Shown: positions 30,258-40,470 of the stretch, in pieces | Layout: every line of letters starts with the position of its first letter | Numbering within the stretch: position 1 is the stretch's first letter | DNA from: a candidate division WOR-3 bacterium | GTDB lineage: Bacteria; Hydrothermota; Hydrothermia; Hydrothermales; JAJRUZ01 | DNA length: 49,649 bases | Assembly (NCBI GenBank): GCA_039803925.1 | Contig: JBDRZL010000016.1 | Coordinates: 1 to 49,649 of the forward strand | Reading direction: 5' to 3' | The notes under the pieces: generated by a model | Databases searched by the model: none | What the model saw: the letters and a program-made list of their open reading frames with translations, nothing else | Told to the model about the DNA's origin: nothing | Translations under genes and position numbers: made by a program

Positions 30258-30704
30258 TTAACCTATATAATCGTCGTAGATAGTTTCGAGTCTTAATTTA
30301 TGTTTTGCTTCTTCTTTTGCAAGAGAATTAAGTAGTTCTCTTATATCTTCATTTTCAGATTTTTCAGCAAGTTCTGTATATAAAGTAAAGGCAAGTTTTT
30401 CTCTTTTCATTGCAAAAATTAAAACATCCTGAAAATCAAAATCTTCTTTTAATTCTGTACTTATGAGTGTATCTGAAATTTTTAAATCAGGAACTTTCTC
30501 ACTTTTTGGAGTTAAAATGATTTTCCCTTCTTTGAAATCAATAAGTTTCTGTTTATGCTTTAATTCTTCTTCTCTAAGTTCTTCAAAGATTTTTTTTAAG
30601 TGTTTATCTTTTGTTTTTTCCCTTAATTTGTTATAAATATTGTATGCTTCCTCTTCTTTTTTAATTGCAAATTCTATGATTTCATCGATTGAGTTAAATT
30701 TCAT
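30258..30704 (-). CDS. Ferritin-like (rubrerythrin-type) diiron protein
   Basis: 148 residues. Two E-x6-Y / E-x-x-H half sites: KKEEEAYNIY with EELREEELKH, and KREKLAFTLY with LAKEEAKH. This is the internally duplicated four-helix bundle of the rubrerythrin/ferritin family, without a C-terminal rubredoxin domain. It likely reduces peroxide or stores iron. It is the last gene of a minus-strand unit that begins with superoxide reductase. Confidence 0.8.
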   Translation of the reverse strand: MKFNSIDEIIEFAIKKEEEAYNIYNKLREKTKDKHLKKIFEELREEELKHKQKLIDFKEGKIILTPKSEKVPDLKISDTLISTELKEDFDFQDVLIFAMKREKLAFTLYTELAEKSENEDIRELLNSLAKEEAKHKLRLETIYDDYIG

Positions 30705-30719
30705 AGTTTTTATTCCTTT

Positions 30720-31148
30720 TTAATCTTTATCAAAGTTTTCAAGCAAACTTATAAAAGTATCGTGATGTTCTTCTTCATCTTCCAGAATTTCTTTAAAAAT
30801 AAAACTTGTTGTGTAGTCTCCTTCCTCATCTGCTTTTTTAATTATTTTTTTATAAAGATCAATTGCCATCTCTTCATCTTTTTTGTCCTGTTCAAGCATT
30901 TCTTTTAGATTTTTTCCCACATTAATGGGAAGAGGATTTGTTGTAGGCATACCACCGAGATAAAAAAGTCTTTCTGCGATTTTTTCAGCATGTTTCATTT
31001 CATCAATTGCTATTTTTTTAAATTCATCCTTTATTGCAAAATGTTTAGGTCCACTCCATAAAACATGTTGCCACATATACTGAATACAAACCTGCAATTC
31101 AGCTGCTATTGCTTTATTTAAAAGTTCAAGTAATTCTTTGGATGGCAT
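30720..31148 (-). CDS. Bacterioferritin-type ferritin
   Basis: 142 residues. Helix A NKAIAAELQVCIQYMWQH, E-x-x-H at IAIDEMKHAE, helix C DEEMAIDLY and E-D-E-E-E-H-H at the last helix form a complete diiron site. It resembles the bacterioferritin/Dps-like ferritins common in anaerobes next to superoxide reductase. A heme-ligand Met cannot be assigned. A GGAGG site and, 28 nt before the ATG, the GGTTCAAATCC element precede it. Confidence 0.85.
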   Translation of the reverse strand: MPSKELLELLNKAIAAELQVCIQYMWQHVLWSGPKHFAIKDEFKKIAIDEMKHAEKIAERLFYLGGMPTTNPLPINVGKNLKEMLEQDKKDEEMAIDLYKKIIKKADEEGDYTTSFIFKEILEDEEEHHDTFISLLENFDKD

Positions 31149-31176
31149 TTAAATATCCTCCTTTTAAAATTTTACT

Positions 31177-31187
31177 GGATTTGAACC
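31177..31187 (-). promoter_or_regulatory. GGTTCAAATCC element upstream of the bacterioferritin-type gene
   Basis: GGTTCAAATCC reads on the minus strand, 28 nt before the ATG at 31148 and directly after the stop of the preceding gene. Only GG/CC can pair around the TTCAAAT loop here, so the sequence rather than the stem is shared with the other copies. No clear TATAAT precedes it. Confidence 0.4.
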
Positions 31188-31190
31188 TTT

Positions 31191-31685
31191 TTAAGGACCT
31201 AAATGCATTAAAGGATTTTCAATATCGTAATCTTCAAATTTAAGCGCATTTTCTTTTTCTATCTCAAATATCTTGTAATGTCCTAATTCCATTGAGGCAA
31301 TATAGTTGATCATAATAGCTGTTTCAGGTTCTTCTTTAAAATATGTAGCAAGAGAAATATAAAAGTCATAGGCATTTTTCTCAGCCTGCATAGCCATTTC
31401 AAAAATTTCACTTATTTTAATTTTTTCAGACTTAATATTTATTTGGGGTAATGGAACAGGTGATTTTTCTGGAAGTAATAATCTTTTTCCAGGGAATCTA
31501 TTTTTATAAATTGATTCAAAGGTTTCTTTATGCTTCTGTTCTTCCTGGGATAGAAATTTTAATTTATCCTTTAAGAAAGCATTTTTAACCTTTCTACTTA
31601 AGCTTTCGTATAGTTCTCTTGCTTCTATTTCACTTTTTATAGCAATAGAAAGTAGTTCTTCAAGGTTATACTGTGATAAATCCAT
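31191..31685 (-). CDS. Ferritin-like (rubrerythrin-type) diiron protein
   Basis: 164 residues. Duplicated half sites KSEIEARELY / LSQEEQKH and QAEKNAYDFY / ASMELGH. It is the second rubrerythrin-like paralogue of the unit, only loosely similar to that at 30258-30704. It carries a proline-rich linker (LLLPEKSPVPLPQ) between the halves, and lacks a rubredoxin domain. Confidence 0.8.
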   Translation of the reverse strand: MDLSQYNLEELLSIAIKSEIEARELYESLSRKVKNAFLKDKLKFLSQEEQKHKETFESIYKNRFPGKRLLLPEKSPVPLPQINIKSEKIKISEIFEMAMQAEKNAYDFYISLATYFKEEPETAIMINYIASMELGHYKIFEIEKENALKFEDYDIENPLMHLGP

Positions 31686-31700
31686 TTTAACCTCTAAAGT

Positions 31701-32093
31701 TTAAAATTTAATTTCCTTTGAATTTGCCCACAAACCGTGAATATTGCAGTATGAGAAGGCAAAAATTTCACCATTTTTTTCGGTTTTAAAATCAAAAATA
31801 ACAATAGGTTCTGTATAGACAGTACTTGTATCAGGTCCCTGGGTTGAAGAACCGTGAGATAAAAATTCAAACCTCCCAAGGTGATAAGGAAATTTTTCGC
31901 CATTAGGAAGGAAAAAGACATCAATCCATGATATGTGATGTTGGGTGGTATTAGGATGGGATATTTCTTTTCCAACACTCACTTCAATTCTTATTTTTTC
32001 TCCCTTTTTTACTTCACCTATTATTTCTATTACCGGGGAATGCTTTTCTTTTTTCCAGTCTGCACTTTGGAATAATTCTTTAAAGTGGTGCAT
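31701..32093 (-). CDS. sor: Superoxide reductase (neelaredoxin / class II)
   Basis: 130 residues. The catalytic iron site is complete: E16-K17-H18 (EKHSP), H46 (SHPNT), H52 (QHHISW), C116 and H119 (YCNIHGLW). There is no N-terminal desulforedoxin domain. It reduces superoxide to peroxide with electrons from rubredoxin or similar. It leads a minus-strand unit with three ferritin-like proteins, a peroxide and iron sink. A GGAGG site precedes the ATG. Confidence 0.93.
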   Translation of the reverse strand: MHHFKELFQSADWKKEKHSPVIEIIGEVKKGEKIRIEVSVGKEISHPNTTQHHISWIDVFFLPNGEKFPYHLGRFEFLSHGSSTQGPDTSTVYTEPIVIFDFKTEKNGEIFAFSYCNIHGLWANSKEIKF

Positions 32094-32848: not shown

Positions 32849-35704
32849 TCATCTTATTAAAATTACTTTTTTCTGAAATTTTTGTTTTCCGGTTTGAAGA
32901 CTTAGAAAATAAATTCCCTTTGCAAGTTTTGTATGAATTTTTATTTTTTCACCTTCACTTATTTTTCCCCTTGGTAATGTAAATATCCTTTGTCCCAAGA
33001 CATTATACAGGTTTATTTTCACATCAGAATCTCTCTTTAAAGTGTAATTAATGTGTATTTCATTGTCTTTTATGATATTTGGAGATACACTGAAGAAAGT
33101 TATTTTGTTATTTTTTTCACTTACTTCTTTTATATGAACCATATTCCAGTATCGTGCATAAGCAGTATCAGAGTATTTGCGGAGTTTGGTGACGGAAGTT
33201 GCTCCAAGTATTGCAAAAGCAGTAATAATACTATCCTGGGGATTTATATTAAAAGGTCCTGCTGAAATACAGGTTGACCAGTCATAAGGTCTATCTGAGA
33301 AAAGAACTTTTATTGTTCCGTTCATAAATTGGAACTGGATATTATCAGGTAATCCACCATAAGGATACACATATTGAGCATGATCAATTAATGAATGATT
33401 TATCTTTCCTGAATTTCTTGGTGGGTCAATCACTGCTGAACCCATAACAACATTTCCGTAATACATATAGGCTAAATTCCGAATTGTATCAACTCCTCCC
33501 ACATTCTGCTCATAATTTCCAATATCCCAATCAAGAAAGATTGCAGAATACAGATTATTAACAGTGGTATTTCCTCTATTTTTTATAGTAAATTTATAAA
33601 TAACAAAATCATCAGCACTTGTATCTCCCCATGCAAAAGTTTCCTGTTTAACTAAAATATTTTTAGAAGAGGGATGACCTGAATCATCATAGAGTGCAAT
33701 TGTGTATTCATCAGAAAAAGGACCTGGTTCATATAATCTTACTTTTCCTTCTGGATCTAATGTTATCCAATCTTGATCATCACCTTCTTGATTGTAATAT
33801 CTATCAACAACAAAGGATGTAGAATTTCCAATTGCAAAACTGCCGTAATATAAATGACTTGGAGAAGTTTTTGGATAATGGCAGCCCCTGCCATAAATCA
33901 TTGGTGGATATGAACTCATATAACCAATTGAACCATTCCTTGTTACAGATAAAACTATATTTCCTGTATCATGTGTTACAAAATCAAATCCAGGTATTCC
34001 TATATAAGTTTTAAAGAATTTTGTTGATGAATATTCCTGAGCATTTATTTCAAGAGTAAAAAAAACTTCAGAACCCCATGGAGCATCATAAGAGGCAAAA
34101 ATTTTATAAGGATCACTTGCATTATCTGCACTATCCCCTGGATAAATATCCCCAAAGGATGATATGGAATCAATTATTGATACATATGGGTTTTGTGTTT
34201 TTAAAACCCCATAAGTATTCACCGCTGGTCCGCCACCTAAATTTTTTAGATTGATAGTTATACTTGAATTCTCCCCTGGTTCCCATATTCCGTTCTGGTT
34301 TTGGTCATCTCTTTGGAGAGAAAGTAAATAAATGAATGGTTCATTAGGAGAAGGTGTATTTAAAAGGGCCTTATAGATATTTAAAATACCCCATCCATAA
34401 TCAAAATTTGGGCAAGGCTCTACTGGTCGAGAAGAATTTACAAGGATATTGTATAAATCATTTGGAGTTAGGTTTGGATTTTTTTGAAGTAATATTGCTA
34501 CTGCTCCTGTAACATGCGGGCATGCCATTGATGTGCCACTCCAGGCTTGGTAACCTCCTCCTGGAACAGCTGATCGCACATAGACGCCTGGTGCTGATAT
34601 ATCAGGTTTAATTAAATTCCAATCAGGACGATACCAATACTGGGGATCGTTCCATGGATATGCATCAGGAGCAGGACCACGGGAAGAAAAGTTTGCAATT
34701 ACATCATTTATATCTGTGGCTCCAACTCCAATAACGGTAGGAAAATTTCCAGGTGTGTTAGCAGTTCCATAATTTGGACCACTATTTCCATTGGCAAATA
34801 CAGGGAAAATCCCCATTGATTTCCATGTCAGAATTATTGGCCAGAAATGCAACTCAAGGCGACCACCACCCCAAGAATTACTAACTGCTCTTATATCAAC
34901 TCCACTTTCTTTCCAGTCAACAATCTTTTGCATGCAAGGATCAATCCATTCATAGTAACCTATCCCACCTGAGAACCCTTTTGCTGCTACAAATTTTAAA
35001 TCTGGTGCAACTCCTATATCATCCTGAAATGGACCGAAGCCATCTCCTCCACATATTGTTCCCATCGTATGTGTTCCATGTCCATCATCATCATAAGGAG
35101 AAGATTGTCCATAAACTCCATCAAACCAATAGGGAAAAAGCCATTTATTTTTTAATGCAGGATGGGAGGTATCAACACCTGAATCAATGTGTCCTATTAT
35201 AATTCCCTGACCTGTATAACCTGCCATCCAGCAAGAATCTGCTCTAACGCGCAGAATATTCCATTCAACAGTATTTTTTGCCATTCTTCTTTTTTCTTTT
35301 TCAATTATACCATCAAGTATTATCTTTTCGTTTCCGCATATAAACCATATATCATTTAATTTTTCAAGGGTATAGATCACAGATTTTGTAGCTTTAATAT
35401 GAAAACCATTAAAAACCCAGAATCTTTTCAGAATTTCATATTCATCGGATTTAAAATTATTTTTCAGGAATTCAATAATTTTATTTTGTGAATTTTCAGC
35501 TATACTTTTAAAAATTTTTGCTTTTTCTTTATATGAAAGATTATCAACTTCTTCATAAGGGTATATAGTTGAAAGGTGGACAATGGCAAATACCTTATCC
35601 TTATTACCAGCTTTTTCAAGTTCTTTTTTTAATTCAGATGTTATTTTCCCTTCAAGGGGTAAAGGAGGTAAAATTCCAAAAAAAGAGAGTAGCAAAAAAT
35701 TCAT
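32849..35704 (-). CDS. Secreted subtilisin-like serine protease with type IX-like tail
   Basis: 951 residues. Signal peptide at 1-19, an inhibitor-like prodomain to ~140, then the S8 domain with catalytic D174 (HIDSGVD), H209 (DDDGHGTHTMG) and S392 (SGTSMACPHV); oxyanion Asn307 in ANGNSGP. The middle of the protein (~450-850) is beta-sandwich-like with no motif recognised. The last ~80 residues (YNVLGQRIFTLP, then AKGIYFLSLQTG) form a Por-secretion-like tail. It is probably a surface or extracellular protease. It follows the BNR-repeat gene after 10 nt, in one unit, and has a hairpin terminator. Confidence 0.93.
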   Translation of the reverse strand: MNFLLLSFFGILPPLPLEGKITSELKKELEKAGNKDKVFAIVHLSTIYPYEEVDNLSYKEKAKIFKSIAENSQNKIIEFLKNNFKSDEYEILKRFWVFNGFHIKATKSVIYTLEKLNDIWFICGNEKIILDGIIEKEKRRMAKNTVEWNILRVRADSCWMAGYTGQGIIIGHIDSGVDTSHPALKNKWLFPYWFDGVYGQSSPYDDDGHGTHTMGTICGGDGFGPFQDDIGVAPDLKFVAAKGFSGGIGYYEWIDPCMQKIVDWKESGVDIRAVSNSWGGGRLELHFWPIILTWKSMGIFPVFANGNSGPNYGTANTPGNFPTVIGVGATDINDVIANFSSRGPAPDAYPWNDPQYWYRPDWNLIKPDISAPGVYVRSAVPGGGYQAWSGTSMACPHVTGAVAILLQKNPNLTPNDLYNILVNSSRPVEPCPNFDYGWGILNIYKALLNTPSPNEPFIYLLSLQRDDQNQNGIWEPGENSSITINLKNLGGGPAVNTYGVLKTQNPYVSIIDSISSFGDIYPGDSADNASDPYKIFASYDAPWGSEVFFTLEINAQEYSSTKFFKTYIGIPGFDFVTHDTGNIVLSVTRNGSIGYMSSYPPMIYGRGCHYPKTSPSHLYYGSFAIGNSTSFVVDRYYNQEGDDQDWITLDPEGKVRLYEPGPFSDEYTIALYDDSGHPSSKNILVKQETFAWGDTSADDFVIYKFTIKNRGNTTVNNLYSAIFLDWDIGNYEQNVGGVDTIRNLAYMYYGNVVMGSAVIDPPRNSGKINHSLIDHAQYVYPYGGLPDNIQFQFMNGTIKVLFSDRPYDWSTCISAGPFNINPQDSIITAFAILGATSVTKLRKYSDTAYARYWNMVHIKEVSEKNNKITFFSVSPNIIKDNEIHINYTLKRDSDVKINLYNVLGQRIFTLPRGKISEGEKIKIHTKLAKGIYFLSLQTGKQKFQKKVILIR

Positions 35705-35714
35705 AATTTTTCTC

Positions 35715-38069
35715 CTATTTTAATAAGATAACTTTTTTAACTTCTTTTTTGTTTCCTATGGATGCCTTAATAAAATAAGCACCGGTTTTTAGCTTTTTAC
35801 CAGAATCAGATTCACCATTTAAGATGATGAAGCTTTTATCTTTTAAATTAAACTTTTTGATAACACTTCCCTTTATGTCAAGTATTTCTAAACTTAAAGG
35901 CGAATTAAGAGATTTTAGAATTTCAGGGTTTAATAGTATTTTAATTTCATTTTTAGAGATATTCTGTGAAAGAACAAAAAGGTTAATTTCCTTATGTTTT
36001 TCTTTTTCTGAGATATTAGTGTAGCCAAATCTGTATCTAAAAATACCTCCTTTTGTTGTTACATAAATTATTGAATCCTCACTCCATTCTACTCTGTGAA
36101 TATAAGGATTGGGAGGAACTGGGAATTCTTCCCATGTTAATCCACCATTATATGATATGTAAAGTTGAGCAGGAGAACCACCACCTACCTCAAAATAATC
36201 CAACAAGTATGCTGAGTAGTATAATACCTGAGGGTAATTTACACAAACCAAAATAGTTTCAGGGGAGGATGGTTTGAAACAGATATCAAATATACCAAAA
36301 GAAGGAAAAGAAGCGATAGGGAAGTAAGTTTCTCCTCCATCCATACTTTTAAAGAGCCTATTCCAGTTGTCAGCTGCCAGAATAATATTAGGATTTTGAG
36401 GGTAAACAGCTATTGCTGTGCCTATCATGCCAATAAATTCTCCGCTTCTAAAGATTTTCTGCCAAGTTGTGCCCTGATCTTGACTTTTCTTTGCAAGACA
36501 AGAATCCCTGTCAGGCCCAAATGGTGGACGTTTAGTTGCAAAAATCGTCTGGTCTGGGCTAATTGTGATACCGGACCAGTATGCTGCTGGATACAAAATC
36601 TGATTAAAAGTCAAAGCACCATCAGAACTTTTATACACAAAGTTGTTTGAATTTGTAACGTATATATTAGAGAAAGTATCCATTACAATTTTCCCAACTC
36701 CGGCAGAGCTTCCACTTAAAGTGGATCTATAACTCCATGTTTGTCCTGAATCTACGCTTCTGTAAAATTTGGAAGCTCTGCCAATAATATCTGTAGGATA
36801 TGGATATGATACATAGATTTCATTTAAATTTTTAGGGTTAATAGCAATAGTATTAAACTTTAAATCAGCATTTGAGATTCCATGATTTTTAAGTGTCCAA
36901 TTTTTACCTCTGTCGTTAGATATAAATATACCATTTGCCAAAGAAGTTACATATATTTTATTTTTATTTAAGGGATGTATTGTAATTCCATAGGTATAAG
37001 GGGCTCTAAGACCTTCATTAAGAAGAGTCCATGTCATGCCTCCATCGGTTGATTTATATAAACCTTGAACATTTGAAATGTAATATGTAAGGGGTTGTGA
37101 GGGATCCTGAATAATACGTGAAGCATAAGGAATTTTCATACCAGAGTTTGAAGAAAACCAGCTTTGACCTCCATCAATACTTTTATAAATACCTCCCTTA
37201 TCTGCAGCAATAAACATTAAATCAGGATAATCTTTGTCTATGAGTAATTCAGAAAAATAAGAAACTGGAAGTGAACCCCAAGGCAAGCTACCAACTTGAA
37301 ACCAGTTTTCTCCTTTATTTAAACTTTTTAAAACATAAGTTTCATTTACACTTCTGGCTAAACAATAAATAATATTACTGTCTGAAGGATGGAAAGCAAA
37401 GCCATAACAATCTTGATAGGGACTTTCATAAACCTGATACCAACTTTCTCCATAATCCGTGCTTTTATATATGACACCATACCAATAACCAGAACCTGAT
37501 CTTTCACCACCAGCAAAAATAATATTGGGATAAAAAGGATGAATTGCAAAATCGTGAACATCTACATCTGAAGGTAATGATAGCTGTTGCCAAGTGAAAC
37601 CGCCATCTGTGCTTTTAAATCCAGGACCATCTAAATCTCTATTGCAGATAAAAATTAAGTTATCATTTTGTGGATGAATTCTTATTGGATAGTTAAAAAC
37701 CTCAGTTCCTCCTAACTGAATCCAGGTTTGTCCACCATCCATTGTTTTATATAAACGTGTGTTATAATAAAAATGGAATCCAAGTCCAATAGTCCCAGTA
37801 AAAACATAAATAATGTTTTCATCTTGTCTGCTAACAGCTATATCCCAGATAGGTGCAAATGGACCTGAATGAAAAGAAAAAGTATTACCTCCATCAGTGC
37901 TTTTCCATATTCCACCGTAATAAGTTCCTAAATAAAAAACACCTGTTGATGAGATATCAAAGGCATAGACTATTGCACCATTAGGAGATATGTTTTCCCA
38001 TTCTGCCTTCAGGCTCCCAAAAAAGAAGAGCCCTATTATTACTATAAGGCTTATTTTATTTTTACCCAT
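35715..38069 (-). CDS. Secreted BNR/Asp-box beta-propeller protein with type IX-like tail
   Basis: 784 residues. Signal peptide ends at LKA (residues ~1-22). About thirteen Asp-box hairpins follow, of the type S-x-D-G-G-x-T-W (STDGGNTF, TMDGGQTW, STDGGFTW, SIDGGQSW, STDGGMTW, SMDGGETY and degenerate ones), as in sortilin/Vps10 or glycoside-hydrolase-74 propellers. No sialidase or GH74 catalytic pair is obvious. The C-terminus (LEILDIKGSVIKK, TGAYFIKASIG) is the sorting tail. A GGAGG site precedes the ATG. First gene of a two-gene secreted unit with the subtilase. Confidence 0.85.
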   Translation of the reverse strand: MGKNKISLIVIIGLFFFGSLKAEWENISPNGAIVYAFDISSTGVFYLGTYYGGIWKSTDGGNTFSFHSGPFAPIWDIAVSRQDENIIYVFTGTIGLGFHFYYNTRLYKTMDGGQTWIQLGGTEVFNYPIRIHPQNDNLIFICNRDLDGPGFKSTDGGFTWQQLSLPSDVDVHDFAIHPFYPNIIFAGGERSGSGYWYGVIYKSTDYGESWYQVYESPYQDCYGFAFHPSDSNIIYCLARSVNETYVLKSLNKGENWFQVGSLPWGSLPVSYFSELLIDKDYPDLMFIAADKGGIYKSIDGGQSWFSSNSGMKIPYASRIIQDPSQPLTYYISNVQGLYKSTDGGMTWTLLNEGLRAPYTYGITIHPLNKNKIYVTSLANGIFISNDRGKNWTLKNHGISNADLKFNTIAINPKNLNEIYVSYPYPTDIIGRASKFYRSVDSGQTWSYRSTLSGSSAGVGKIVMDTFSNIYVTNSNNFVYKSSDGALTFNQILYPAAYWSGITISPDQTIFATKRPPFGPDRDSCLAKKSQDQGTTWQKIFRSGEFIGMIGTAIAVYPQNPNIILAADNWNRLFKSMDGGETYFPIASFPSFGIFDICFKPSSPETILVCVNYPQVLYYSAYLLDYFEVGGGSPAQLYISYNGGLTWEEFPVPPNPYIHRVEWSEDSIIYVTTKGGIFRYRFGYTNISEKEKHKEINLFVLSQNISKNEIKILLNPEILKSLNSPLSLEILDIKGSVIKKFNLKDKSFIILNGESDSGKKLKTGAYFIKASIGNKKEVKKVILLK

Positions 38070-38180
38070 AAGATACCTCCTTTTTACACTAAATAATAAA
38101 TTTAAAAATGCCCATAATTTTTATCTTTTAATTTAAAAAAATATTGTGGCACAATTTATTTTATTTAAGAATAATTTTAC

Positions 38181-38210
38181 TTGACTTTTTTTTATTGTTT
38201 ATTTTATAAT
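38181..38210 (+). promoter_or_regulatory. Promoter of the composite regulator gene
   Basis: TTGACT (38181-38186), 18 bp, TATAAT (38205-38210). The ATG is 13 nt downstream, giving a leader of about 7 nt. The divergent gap to the BNR gene is 154 bp, so both directions could share control sites. Confidence 0.65.
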
Positions 38211-38223
38211 TTTTCCACAAAAT

Positions 38224-40470
38224 ATGACAAATAATTTAATTATACCTATAAAAGTAATTGAACATTATCTTAATAATGGTTCATTAAGAAAGACTGCTAA
38301 GAATTTTAATATACATTACAACACCCTTTGGAAATGGGTAAAAATATATAAAAATCAGGGGTTTAAGGAGCAAGGAAAATTTGATGAACGAATTTTTTAT
38401 GGATATAGAAGACCCTGGAACAGGATAAAGAGGGATTTAGAGGAGAAGATTGTTTTATTAAAGGAAAGGGACCCGGCATTAACTTTAAAAAAGGCAAAAG
38501 AAATTTTAGAAAAGGAGAATATAAAAATATCAATAAAGGGTATATGGGGGGTATGGAAAAGATACGGTTATGCAGGTTTTAAAAAGGAGAAAATCAGTAA
38601 TAATTTTGTTGAATATGTTTCCTGGACGAAGGAAGCAGAAGTTAAATTTAGTTTAGCTAGAACTTTTTTTATTAAAAGGGAATTAAAAAAAGCAGGAGAA
38701 ATTTTAAATTCTATTCCGGTTTTACCTAAAAATGAAATTTTAAAAGAAATTCCTGATGAATTCTTAAACTTAAAAAGGAAAATTGAAAAAATACTTTCTC
38801 TTTTTGGAAAGGTACAGGTTGGATCTTATATTAAGAGAATCAAAAAGTTGTATAAAGAATGCTTAAAAAGAAATTTGAATTATTCAGCATTAATTATCGG
38901 GTTAACCGAAGTTGGTGTTTTAGAATGGATTGGAAAGGCAAGTGAGGGTTTGAAAAGGATAAAGGAATTGGAAAGAATATTAAAAAGAAAAAAAGAGTAT
39001 AATTCATATTTACTTTTTAATTTAAAATTTACTCTTCTTATAGAAAAAGGTATACTGAATGCTTATTTAGGAAGGATATATTATGCCCGGAGATATGCAA
39101 ATCTATGTAAGAAAATATTAGAGAGAAAAAAAATTTCTTCTTCTTATCTTATGCTTGATATTGCAACTCTATACACTCATATAGGGGATTATAGAAAAGC
39201 AGAATATTTCTTTATAAAATCTATTGATGGTTTAGATGAAGAAAATAGAAAATGGGTGAATTATAACCTTGCATTAATTCTTTTTTTAAAAGGTGAATAT
39301 AAAAAGGCAAAAGAAATTTCAAAGAATGCCTATTTTGGAGATTGGGCACAAAAAAGTTTCAGAGATTTATTTTATTCTCTTTTTTATATTTTAAAGGGTG
39401 AATTAATAAGGGCTATTTATTTATGCAATAAGGCTATCAAAAATTTTAAAAAAGAAGAACTTGTTTTGGGTATGTTTTATTCATATCTTACAATTTCTGC
39501 TTGTTATTCTGCGCTTGGGGAAATGAAAAAATCTAAAGAGTTATTAAAAAGAATTTTATTTTTCTGTAAAAATAAGGGACTTAAAAAACATCAAAATATT
39601 ATTAATATTTTATTAGGTAAAAATAAAAATATTTTAAAACTAAAAAAGAGTAATTTATTATCTTCTATTTATATTTTGGTTTTGCTTAAAAAGAAAAAAT
39701 TTATTAAAGCATTTTCTTTTGCAAAGAAAAAAGGTATATTAGGCTTTTTTTACCAGTTTATTTTCTTCTTCCCTGAATCCATAGAAAGAATGATTAAAAA
39801 AGGTTTTATTAAATTTTCAAAAAAAATTTTAGATTTACCTGTTTTAAACAAGGAAAATCCTGTATATGAAATAAAATTTCTAGGAAAATTGAAGATTTAT
39901 AGAAGAGAAAAAGGTAAAAATAAAAGATTTTTAAAAATTAATCTATCTAACAGAGAAAGTGCCTTTATTATTCATCTTGCCCTAAGAATAAATGAACCTG
40001 GAAAAAGTATCCCTCTTCAATTTATTTATAATAATTTCTTCAATAGAACAAAAAACCCACAAAAAAATTTTAGGAGGTTACTTAAAAATATTAAGGAAAA
40101 ATTAAAAATTAGAGGGTCTTTGATTGAGATTAATAGAAGAGACAAAACTTTAAAAAATAATGGAGTTTATTTTATAACAGATTATCAGGAGTTTATGCAA
40201 GCACTTACAGCTGCAAATACATTCTTGCAGGCTGGTGAATGGAAATATGCAAAAAGGGAATACTTAACTGCTTTTGATTTATTCAGAGGAAAGCCTTTTG
40301 AAAAAATGTATGATAACCTGTCAGAGGATATGAGAACAAGAATTATTTTAAGGTTTGAATCAGAAATTAAAAATTTTATTAAGGCAGCAAAAATATATGG
40401 AGATACAAAAGCTTTATTGAAAATTCATGGAAAAATTAAAACTTTAATAGATAATTCTCAGGAGGAATAA
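38224..40470 (+). CDS. Composite regulator: transposase-type HTH pair, TPRs, SARP/BTAD-like C-terminus
   Basis: 748 residues. Residues ~7-50 are a helix-turn-helix of transposase type (YLNNGSLRKTAKNFNIHYNTLWKWVKIY). Residues ~75-125 are a second one (DPALTLKKAKEILEKENIKISIKGIWGVWKRYGY), together resembling the paired DNA-binding heads of IS630/Tc1-like transposases. Helical TPR-like repeats fill ~135-500 (for example LDIATLYTHIGDYRKAEYFF). Residues ~548-650 look like an OmpR/SARP winged helix (FLGKLKIYRREKG, then NFRRLLKNIKEKL) and ~650-748 like a BTAD helical domain (ALTAANTFLQAGEWKYAKREYLTAF). No transposase catalytic DDE residues remain. Probably a DNA-binding regulator of neighbouring secreted genes; this is inference. 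Confidence 0.65.
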   Translation: MTNNLIIPIKVIEHYLNNGSLRKTAKNFNIHYNTLWKWVKIYKNQGFKEQGKFDERIFYGYRRPWNRIKRDLEEKIVLLKERDPALTLKKAKEILEKENIKISIKGIWGVWKRYGYAGFKKEKISNNFVEYVSWTKEAEVKFSLARTFFIKRELKKAGEILNSIPVLPKNEILKEIPDEFLNLKRKIEKILSLFGKVQVGSYIKRIKKLYKECLKRNLNYSALIIGLTEVGVLEWIGKASEGLKRIKELERILKRKKEYNSYLLFNLKFTLLIEKGILNAYLGRIYYARRYANLCKKILERKKISSSYLMLDIATLYTHIGDYRKAEYFFIKSIDGLDEENRKWVNYNLALILFLKGEYKKAKEISKNAYFGDWAQKSFRDLFYSLFYILKGELIRAIYLCNKAIKNFKKEELVLGMFYSYLTISACYSALGEMKKSKELLKRILFFCKNKGLKKHQNIINILLGKNKNILKLKKSNLLSSIYILVLLKKKKFIKAFSFAKKKGILGFFYQFIFFFPESIERMIKKGFIKFSKKILDLPVLNKENPVYEIKFLGKLKIYRREKGKNKRFLKINLSNRESAFIIHLALRINEPGKSIPLQFIYNNFFNRTKNPQKNFRRLLKNIKEKLKIRGSLIEINRRDKTLKNNGVYFITDYQEFMQALTAANTFLQAGEWKYAKREYLTAFDLFRGKPFEKMYDNLSEDMRTRIILRFESEIKNFIKAAKIYGDTKALLKIHGKIKTLIDNSQEE

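Follow-up and report, generated by a model that had tools for sequence, protein, structure and literature searches.

In AfsR of Streptomyces coelicolor, the SARP domain lies at the N-terminus, and a dimer of this domain contacts region 4 of the sigma factor at the afs box, which spans -40 to -19 (PMC10936776). The fold of this domain, an OmpR-type winged helix followed by a BTAD domain, is common to the AfsR/SARP family, EmbR and residues 547-741 of a regulator encoded by a candidate division WOR-3 bacterium, in a stretch of 49,649 nucleotides that was analysed as a whole (the window). Like AfsR/SARP proteins, this regulator has a TPR part in the same polypeptide and is associated with a box just upstream of the -10 element of a promoter with a poor -35. 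However, its SARP part is C-terminal rather than N-terminal, it has no detected NOD/ATPase domain, it carries an extra transposase-type HTH pair, and it comes from another phylum, where its gene has secreted-protein genes beside it instead of antibiotic genes. The N-terminal two-HTH head is shared with IS481-family transposases, but TPR and SARP domains stand in place of their integrase/DDE core. The TPR solenoid aligns to the RRNPP peptide receptors Rap, NprR, PlcR and AimR and to domain III of MalT (Z 12-14), with the same general arrangement, which for repeat folds is perhaps all that such a match reflects; unlike these proteins, the regulator has two predicted DNA-binding ends. PlcR, NprR and AimR likewise combine HTH and TPR. 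The regulator is accordingly treated here as a SARP variant: it has the fold, with another domain order and an additional head.

Published work on how genes are regulated in the WOR-3 phylum proved scarce. Among the papers listed by a search of open-licence PMC articles, none deals with this architecture or with such a pairing with secreted-protein genes, and by keyword 'regulator', 'secretion' and 'T9SS' are absent from the main texts of two recent WOR-3 papers (PMC12285271; PMC12542636).

The regulator gene, its domains and its neighbours

The gene, its domains and the adjoining operon are placed in the window as follows.

38224-40470, forward strand: regulator gene, 748 aa, HTH-HTH-TPR-winged helix-BTAD (ORF with ATG start; Pfam, AlphaFold2, fold match)
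38239-38358, forward strand: first HTH, IS481/HTH_28 type, residues 6-45 (Pfam, AlphaFold2)
38431-38562, forward strand: second HTH, residues 70-113 (AlphaFold2; domain matches include Tc3 1u78, Z 6.7, and TnsB)
38629-39813, forward strand: TPR solenoid, residues 136-530 (TPR_12 above cut-off; AlphaFold2 helices)
39862-40158, forward strand: OmpR/SARP-type winged helix, residues 547-645 (AlphaFold2, fold match)
40057-40104, forward strand: recognition helix of the C-terminal winged helix, residues 612-627 (AlphaFold2)
40168-40446, forward strand: BTAD-like helical domain, residues 649-741 (weak Pfam BTAD, AlphaFold2, fold match)
35715-38069, reverse strand: divergent gene and proposed target, for a secreted beta-propeller protein of BNR/sortilin type that has a sorting tail (ribosome-side GGAGG at 38076-38080)
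32849-35704, reverse strand: second gene of the proposed target operon, a subtilase (Peptidase_S8) with Por_Secre_tail (Pfam)

The host genome, of which the window is contig C16, comprises 1.84 Mb in 29 contigs and is 96% complete. It has one family copy, as does G003, a second genome of the genus, and a protein search found none in G002. Since the G003 counterpart is 90% identical and relatives across the phylum show roughly 28-47% identity, the ORF is a genuine, conserved gene rather than a frame open by chance. The BNR partner is distributed like the regulator, being 92% identical in G003 and absent from G002. The two genes diverge across 154 bp, as the sequence-only reading had stated, and 10 bp separate the BNR gene from the subtilase gene. 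Por_Secre_tail scores 33.9 bits in the subtilase, over the 27-bit cut-off, and 17.5 bits in the BNR protein, under it; the genome has 38 matches to this domain in total and encodes the T9SS translocon protein SprA (298.6 bits against a cut-off of 200). Adjoining the exoprotein operon, an oxygen-defence island at 30258-32093 encodes two rubrerythrin-like proteins, a ferritin-like protein and desulfoferrodoxin.

The AlphaFold2 model of the regulator, built from a 29-sequence alignment, has a mean pLDDT of 86.7 and a pTM of 0.82. It contains both the tandem HTH pair at the N-terminus (helices 6-18/21-27/32-45 and 70-82/88-97/104-113) and the C-terminal winged helix, on whose presence the sequence-only reading depended. 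The C-terminal assignment of that reading, winged helix plus BTAD-like domain, is borne out by the fold: residues 547-645 run strand-strand-helix-helix-helix-hairpin, and residues 547-741 match AfsR (8k60_I) with Z 16.2 at 3.0 A over 189 aligned residues, and EmbR (2ff4) with Z 15.2. By sequence profile the same region is faint, Pfam BTAD being weak and under its cut-off in the window protein (E 0.028) and found at E<=0.01 in 10 of 27 family members, and Trans_reg_C matching 6 of the 27; a PDB sequence search with the family profile gave TPR but no SARP structure among the 60 matches listed. At the other end, HTH_28 just exceeds its Pfam cut-off (25.6 against 25). HTH_32, which covers both HTH units, falls short of its cut-off in the window protein (17.9 against 33.7) and reaches E<=0.01 in 21 of 27 members. 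Modelled alone, the head is less certain (pLDDT 73.9), and its fold matches, which include Pax, Tc3, TnsB and Mos1, all fall under Z 8, the line below which caution is due; when the N-terminal part was searched by fold, nothing reached E<=0.001 in Foldseek or Z>=8 in VIA.

The head had been likened to those of IS630/Tc1 transposases. Its transposase type stands, as the N-terminal HTH pair is of the IS481-transposase type, whereas the proposed kinship does not: the window protein scores 31.5 bits with the IS481 profile against 22.5 with IS630, both under the family cut-offs. When 60 WOR-3 genomes were searched with the head alignment, the matches outside the family included ORFs of 320-450 aa, and all five that were scanned matched IS481 (109-166 bits against a cut-off of 224), three of them with an rve core at E<=0.001. 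Compared directly with two WOR-3 IS481-like transposases, the window head is 28-29% identical over 109 columns. By these comparisons the head is nearest to IS481 transposases rather than IS630/Tc1. The idea that TPR-like helices replace the catalytic core also holds, since Pfam gives no match to the DDE integrase core (rve) in the regulator at E<=10, and residues 136-741 are TPR and SARP.

Promoter elements and their spacing

The intergenic region contains the following elements.

38181-38186, forward strand: regulator -35, TTGACT
38205-38210, forward strand: regulator -10, TATAAT, then TTTCC at 38212-38216
38143-38155, no strand: perfect palindrome ATTGTG-G-CACAAT, centre 38149, at the family's conserved palindrome position
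38104-38111, reverse strand: box GCATTTTT at the SARP position in the BNR promoter; the consensus of the family, from which this box has diverged, is ACACAATT
38093-38098, reverse strand: -10 of the BNR/subtilase operon, TATTAT (EM search)

On the regulator side, a promoter of the form TTGAC(A)-16/18-TATAAT is nearly universal, and TTGAC occurs in 62 of the 69 copies, out of 76, whose promoter scored above threshold. TTTCC was part of that score, so its own count is biased; it was rejected as a specific site because TATAATNTTTCC is common genome-wide. From the -10 to the ATG the median is 10 nt, and a Shine-Dalgarno-like word precedes the ATG in none of 67 copies, the window copy included, against 35 of 61 partner genes. 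The regulator mRNAs appear to be near-leaderless.

An EM search on the strand of the exoprotein genes, covering 57 intergenic stretches with one near-duplicate left out, yielded the motif ACACAATT-N5-TATAAT with a log-likelihood of 221 against 71-84 for eight shuffled sets, the real data having run with more starts and iterations than the shuffles. No -35 consensus accompanies it: the best score is mostly 2-4 of 6, near that of an offset control. An unrestricted scan placed the box 66-72 bp from the regulator -35 in 54 of 69 copies, where shuffling predicts 2.1 and the complement control gave 9 of 69. The window box, 69 bp from the regulator -35, was overlooked by this consensus scan and found by EM. 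If the -10 is taken as -12 to -7, the family box lies at about -25 to -18, at the place of the afs box (-40 to -19); the two 11-bp direct repeats of AfsR sites are not evident in the box region when judged by eye.

A second element, AAnnCC-N11-GGnnTT, emerged from column statistics with its centre 38 bp from the box. With the box scan limited to 60-95 bp, as for the spacing and identity statistics below, none of the other centres among the 120 compared shows as much palindromic agreement as this one. Under leave-one-out scoring the best palindrome lies <=1 bp from the expected place in 44 of 61 copies, where chance predicts about 3.2, and in the window its centre is exactly 38 bp from the start of the box. 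The palindrome is about 31 bp from the regulator -35. In the 46 copies within 3 bp, the standard deviation is 0.74 bp for the box-palindrome distance and 0.84 bp for the distance from palindrome to -35. Among copies with <40% protein identity, the box (0.57), the -10 (0.79) and the palindrome half-sites (0.44) are conserved, whereas the DNA between the elements is no more alike than chance (0.27 and 0.28 against 0.28 shuffled); therefore the spacing is kept and the spacer sequence is not. A palindrome scan anchored on the regulator -10 had merely re-found the promoter.

We propose, with a probability of about 70%, that the window regulator is a locally acting transcription activator of the divergent BNR and subtilase operon, and that each family copy is dedicated to its own exoprotein gene. 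The C-terminal SARP-type winged helix would bind the box just upstream of the -10 of the secreted gene, and since the exoprotein promoter lacks a -35, RNA polymerase would be brought in by the SARP domain, in the manner of AfsR. The transposase-derived HTH pair may anchor a dimer on the palindrome 38 bp upstream, and the TPR solenoid may act as arm and sensor, placing or releasing the SARP tail on a signal. Bridging of the two sites by the regulator is consistent with the fixed 38-bp spacing. The head, as part of that complex, may in addition modulate the strong promoter of the regulator gene itself, some 31 bp distant. Many genomes hold several family copies, and each such module would serve a different secreted cargo.

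The same elements could belong to a repressor that binds palindrome and box and keeps the exoprotein gene, and the regulator gene as well, off until the TPR part meets its signal. The palindrome does sit between two divergent promoters, and the near-consensus, presumably strong promoter of the regulator would need autorepression. Nevertheless, the lack of a -35 consensus at the secreted promoters is what activator-dependent promoters would be expected to show, and in the characterised case, AfsR, the SARP fold is an activator fold (PMC10936776). Repression is therefore regarded as unlikely.

Covariation of box and regulator

Covariation was analysed in 57 copies by ranking protein columns that share residues when boxes are alike, with overall identity removed. 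For the 8-bp box, places 1, 2 and 4 among 678 columns go to 614, 618 and 622, which share one face of the recognition helix at the C-terminus (p 0.002 for this helix; family-wise P 0.02), and the first HTH shows nothing (p 0.70). The recognition helix of the second HTH also correlates with the box (p 0.002), and with the neighbouring spacer DNA as well (p 0.03 and 0.002), indicating that shared ancestry has not been fully removed; the winged-helix recognition helix correlates with the box only and not with spacer DNA. In Mantel tests after control, box similarity is related to the winged helix with r 0.23 (p 0.005) and to the second HTH with r 0.22 (p 0.01), values that are not decisive alone. 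The window follows the trend, its recognition helix having diverged alongside its box (NFRRLLKNI, not NLSHLLVRI), and all four copies with (G/N)SL(S/A)H-type helices have a ACATATTT box; against the trend, one locus with an ordinary RNLAH helix (L034) also has the ACATATTT box. These comparisons support reading of the box by the SARP-type tail. The suggestion of the sequence-only reading that the BNR/subtilase pair is a likely target also gains, as a conserved promoter-proximal box covaries with the winged-helix recognition helix.

In the same 57 copies no helix tracks the palindrome. Its arms show no significant covariation copy by copy, 156 of 500 permutations reaching the observed value. 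As a separate observation, columns 112, 104 and 106 of the second HTH recognition helix rank 1, 4 and 9 for the DNA that immediately precedes the regulator -35 (-66 to -51 relative to the box), where the head possibly makes a contact.

Were the intergenic elements to belong to other factors, such as a special sigma factor or a global regulator, the regulator would be a hitch-hiking neighbour. The box does lie near the -10, where a sigma factor would act. This reading is nonetheless hardly credible, as variation in the box goes with that in the recognition helix of the adjoining regulator, and exact matches to box plus -10 are nearly confined to family copies. Across 18 genomes, ACACAATTNNNNNTATAAT is matched exactly 11 times, in nine cases at a family copy and on the opposite strand. 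G076, whose genome is a single contig, has three matches, all at family copies, one of which is broken. The two matches elsewhere are at G000:C7:57377, in the host genome inside a 512-aa ORF, and at its G003 counterpart (L128).

Exoprotein partners, distribution and turnover

The proposal to look for paralogues beside secreted-protein genes gave a strongly positive result. An upstream ORF of at least 110 aa is present at 68 family copies and divergent in 67, the single exception being the 3' piece of a broken copy. Por_Secre_tail is found at E<=0.01 in 45 of the 67 divergent neighbours, FlgD_ig in 28 and CHU_C in 14; BNR and other propellers, subtilase (5) and peptidase C25 (2) also occur. By these tail matches, and by the SprA homologue of the host genome, the divergent partners fit the definition of T9SS cargo, a C-terminal sorting domain in a genome with T9SS. 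A tail model matched 51 of the 58 neighbours whose stop is visible and 6 of 127 ORFs lying over three genes away, a comparison that is not independent because the model was trained on 52 of the same neighbours. Hydrophobic N-termini are present in 51 of 58 neighbours against 35 of 114 ORFs of the comparison set. At four loci (L076, L082, L107 and L122) the neighbours are not obvious exoproteins. Over the sequences compared, divergent pairing recurs family-wide, with the promoter elements at fixed spacing.

Among regulator pairs with at least 55% identity, the partners are homologous, tails removed, in only 15 of 42, some partners being incomplete at contig ends; the cargo thus appears to be exchanged while the switch of the module stays. 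A wider reading, offered tentatively and with more doubt than confidence, would make these modules phylum-wide standard expression cassettes for surface proteins, in which the chimeric regulator, with a captured IS481 head, a TPR arm and a SARP tail, and the constant-geometry switch are fixed and the cargo is exchanged, the TPR part acts as a ruler that clamps palindrome and box 38 bp apart, and the cell chooses which exoproteins to display.

As far as searched, the family appears confined to the WOR-3 phylum. A match at E<=1e-5 is found in 29 of 147 phylum genomes, among which G021 has a TPR-only match and G078 and G019 a fragment only. In a deeper search, 14 of 15 chosen genomes had more than one match, unrelated TPR proteins being counted too. 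Sixty stretches were fetched around mostly full-length copies and, with the window, gave 72 family ORFs, 70 of them over 100 bits. The relatives come from records named WOR-3 or Ca. Stahlbacteria, with three loci in one bin labelled Cloacimonadota. The L034 copy (JAGLYY010000080.1), with the same promoter elements, is in a MAG labelled Spirochaetales, which may reflect mis-binning or transfer.

The transposase-type head, the multiple copies, the broken copies and remnants, the copies at contig ends and the differing partner genes of close paralogues would all suit a mobile or selfish descendant of an IS481 transposon, with exoprotein genes as cargo. This origin is nevertheless very improbable, as the protein lacks the DDE core, the promoter architecture is conserved, the partner gene is the same in the three closest regulator pairs (84-90% identical), and phage, plasmid and viral collections gave no match.

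Dedicated activation of the divergent exoprotein gene remains the preferred reading. From sequence alone, the analysis yields a regulator family, its probable targets, a box with the amino acids that probably read it and a fixed promoter geometry, and the divergent pairing with sites at fixed distances makes exoprotein control directly testable. If the proposal is true, SARP-type activation extends beyond antibiotic control, a transposase head has been recruited onto a SARP regulator, and a ready system exists for testing how a two-ended DNA-binding protein measures DNA.

Several minor observations concern the history of the family. Head-only or BTAD-only remnants occur at G076:C1:583649-584032, where the box is retained, and at G068:C4:116299, G079:C108:43949 and G074:C61:37692; such scattered short remnants suggest module turnover. 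In alignment columns 660-700, L017 and L026 have a common insertion and similar C-termini, yet their N-terminal halves are very unlike, which suggests recombination between paralogues. Family-bearing genomes are also rich in TPR proteins of 1000-1600 aa (for example, L094 329-3643 and the +2 gene of L099), some of which start with a GGDEF-like stretch, judged by eye. The SARP/BTAD part of the family profile matches at least those at G089:C10:29850 and G065:C6:20505, and proteins of this kind could be the source of the SARP tail.
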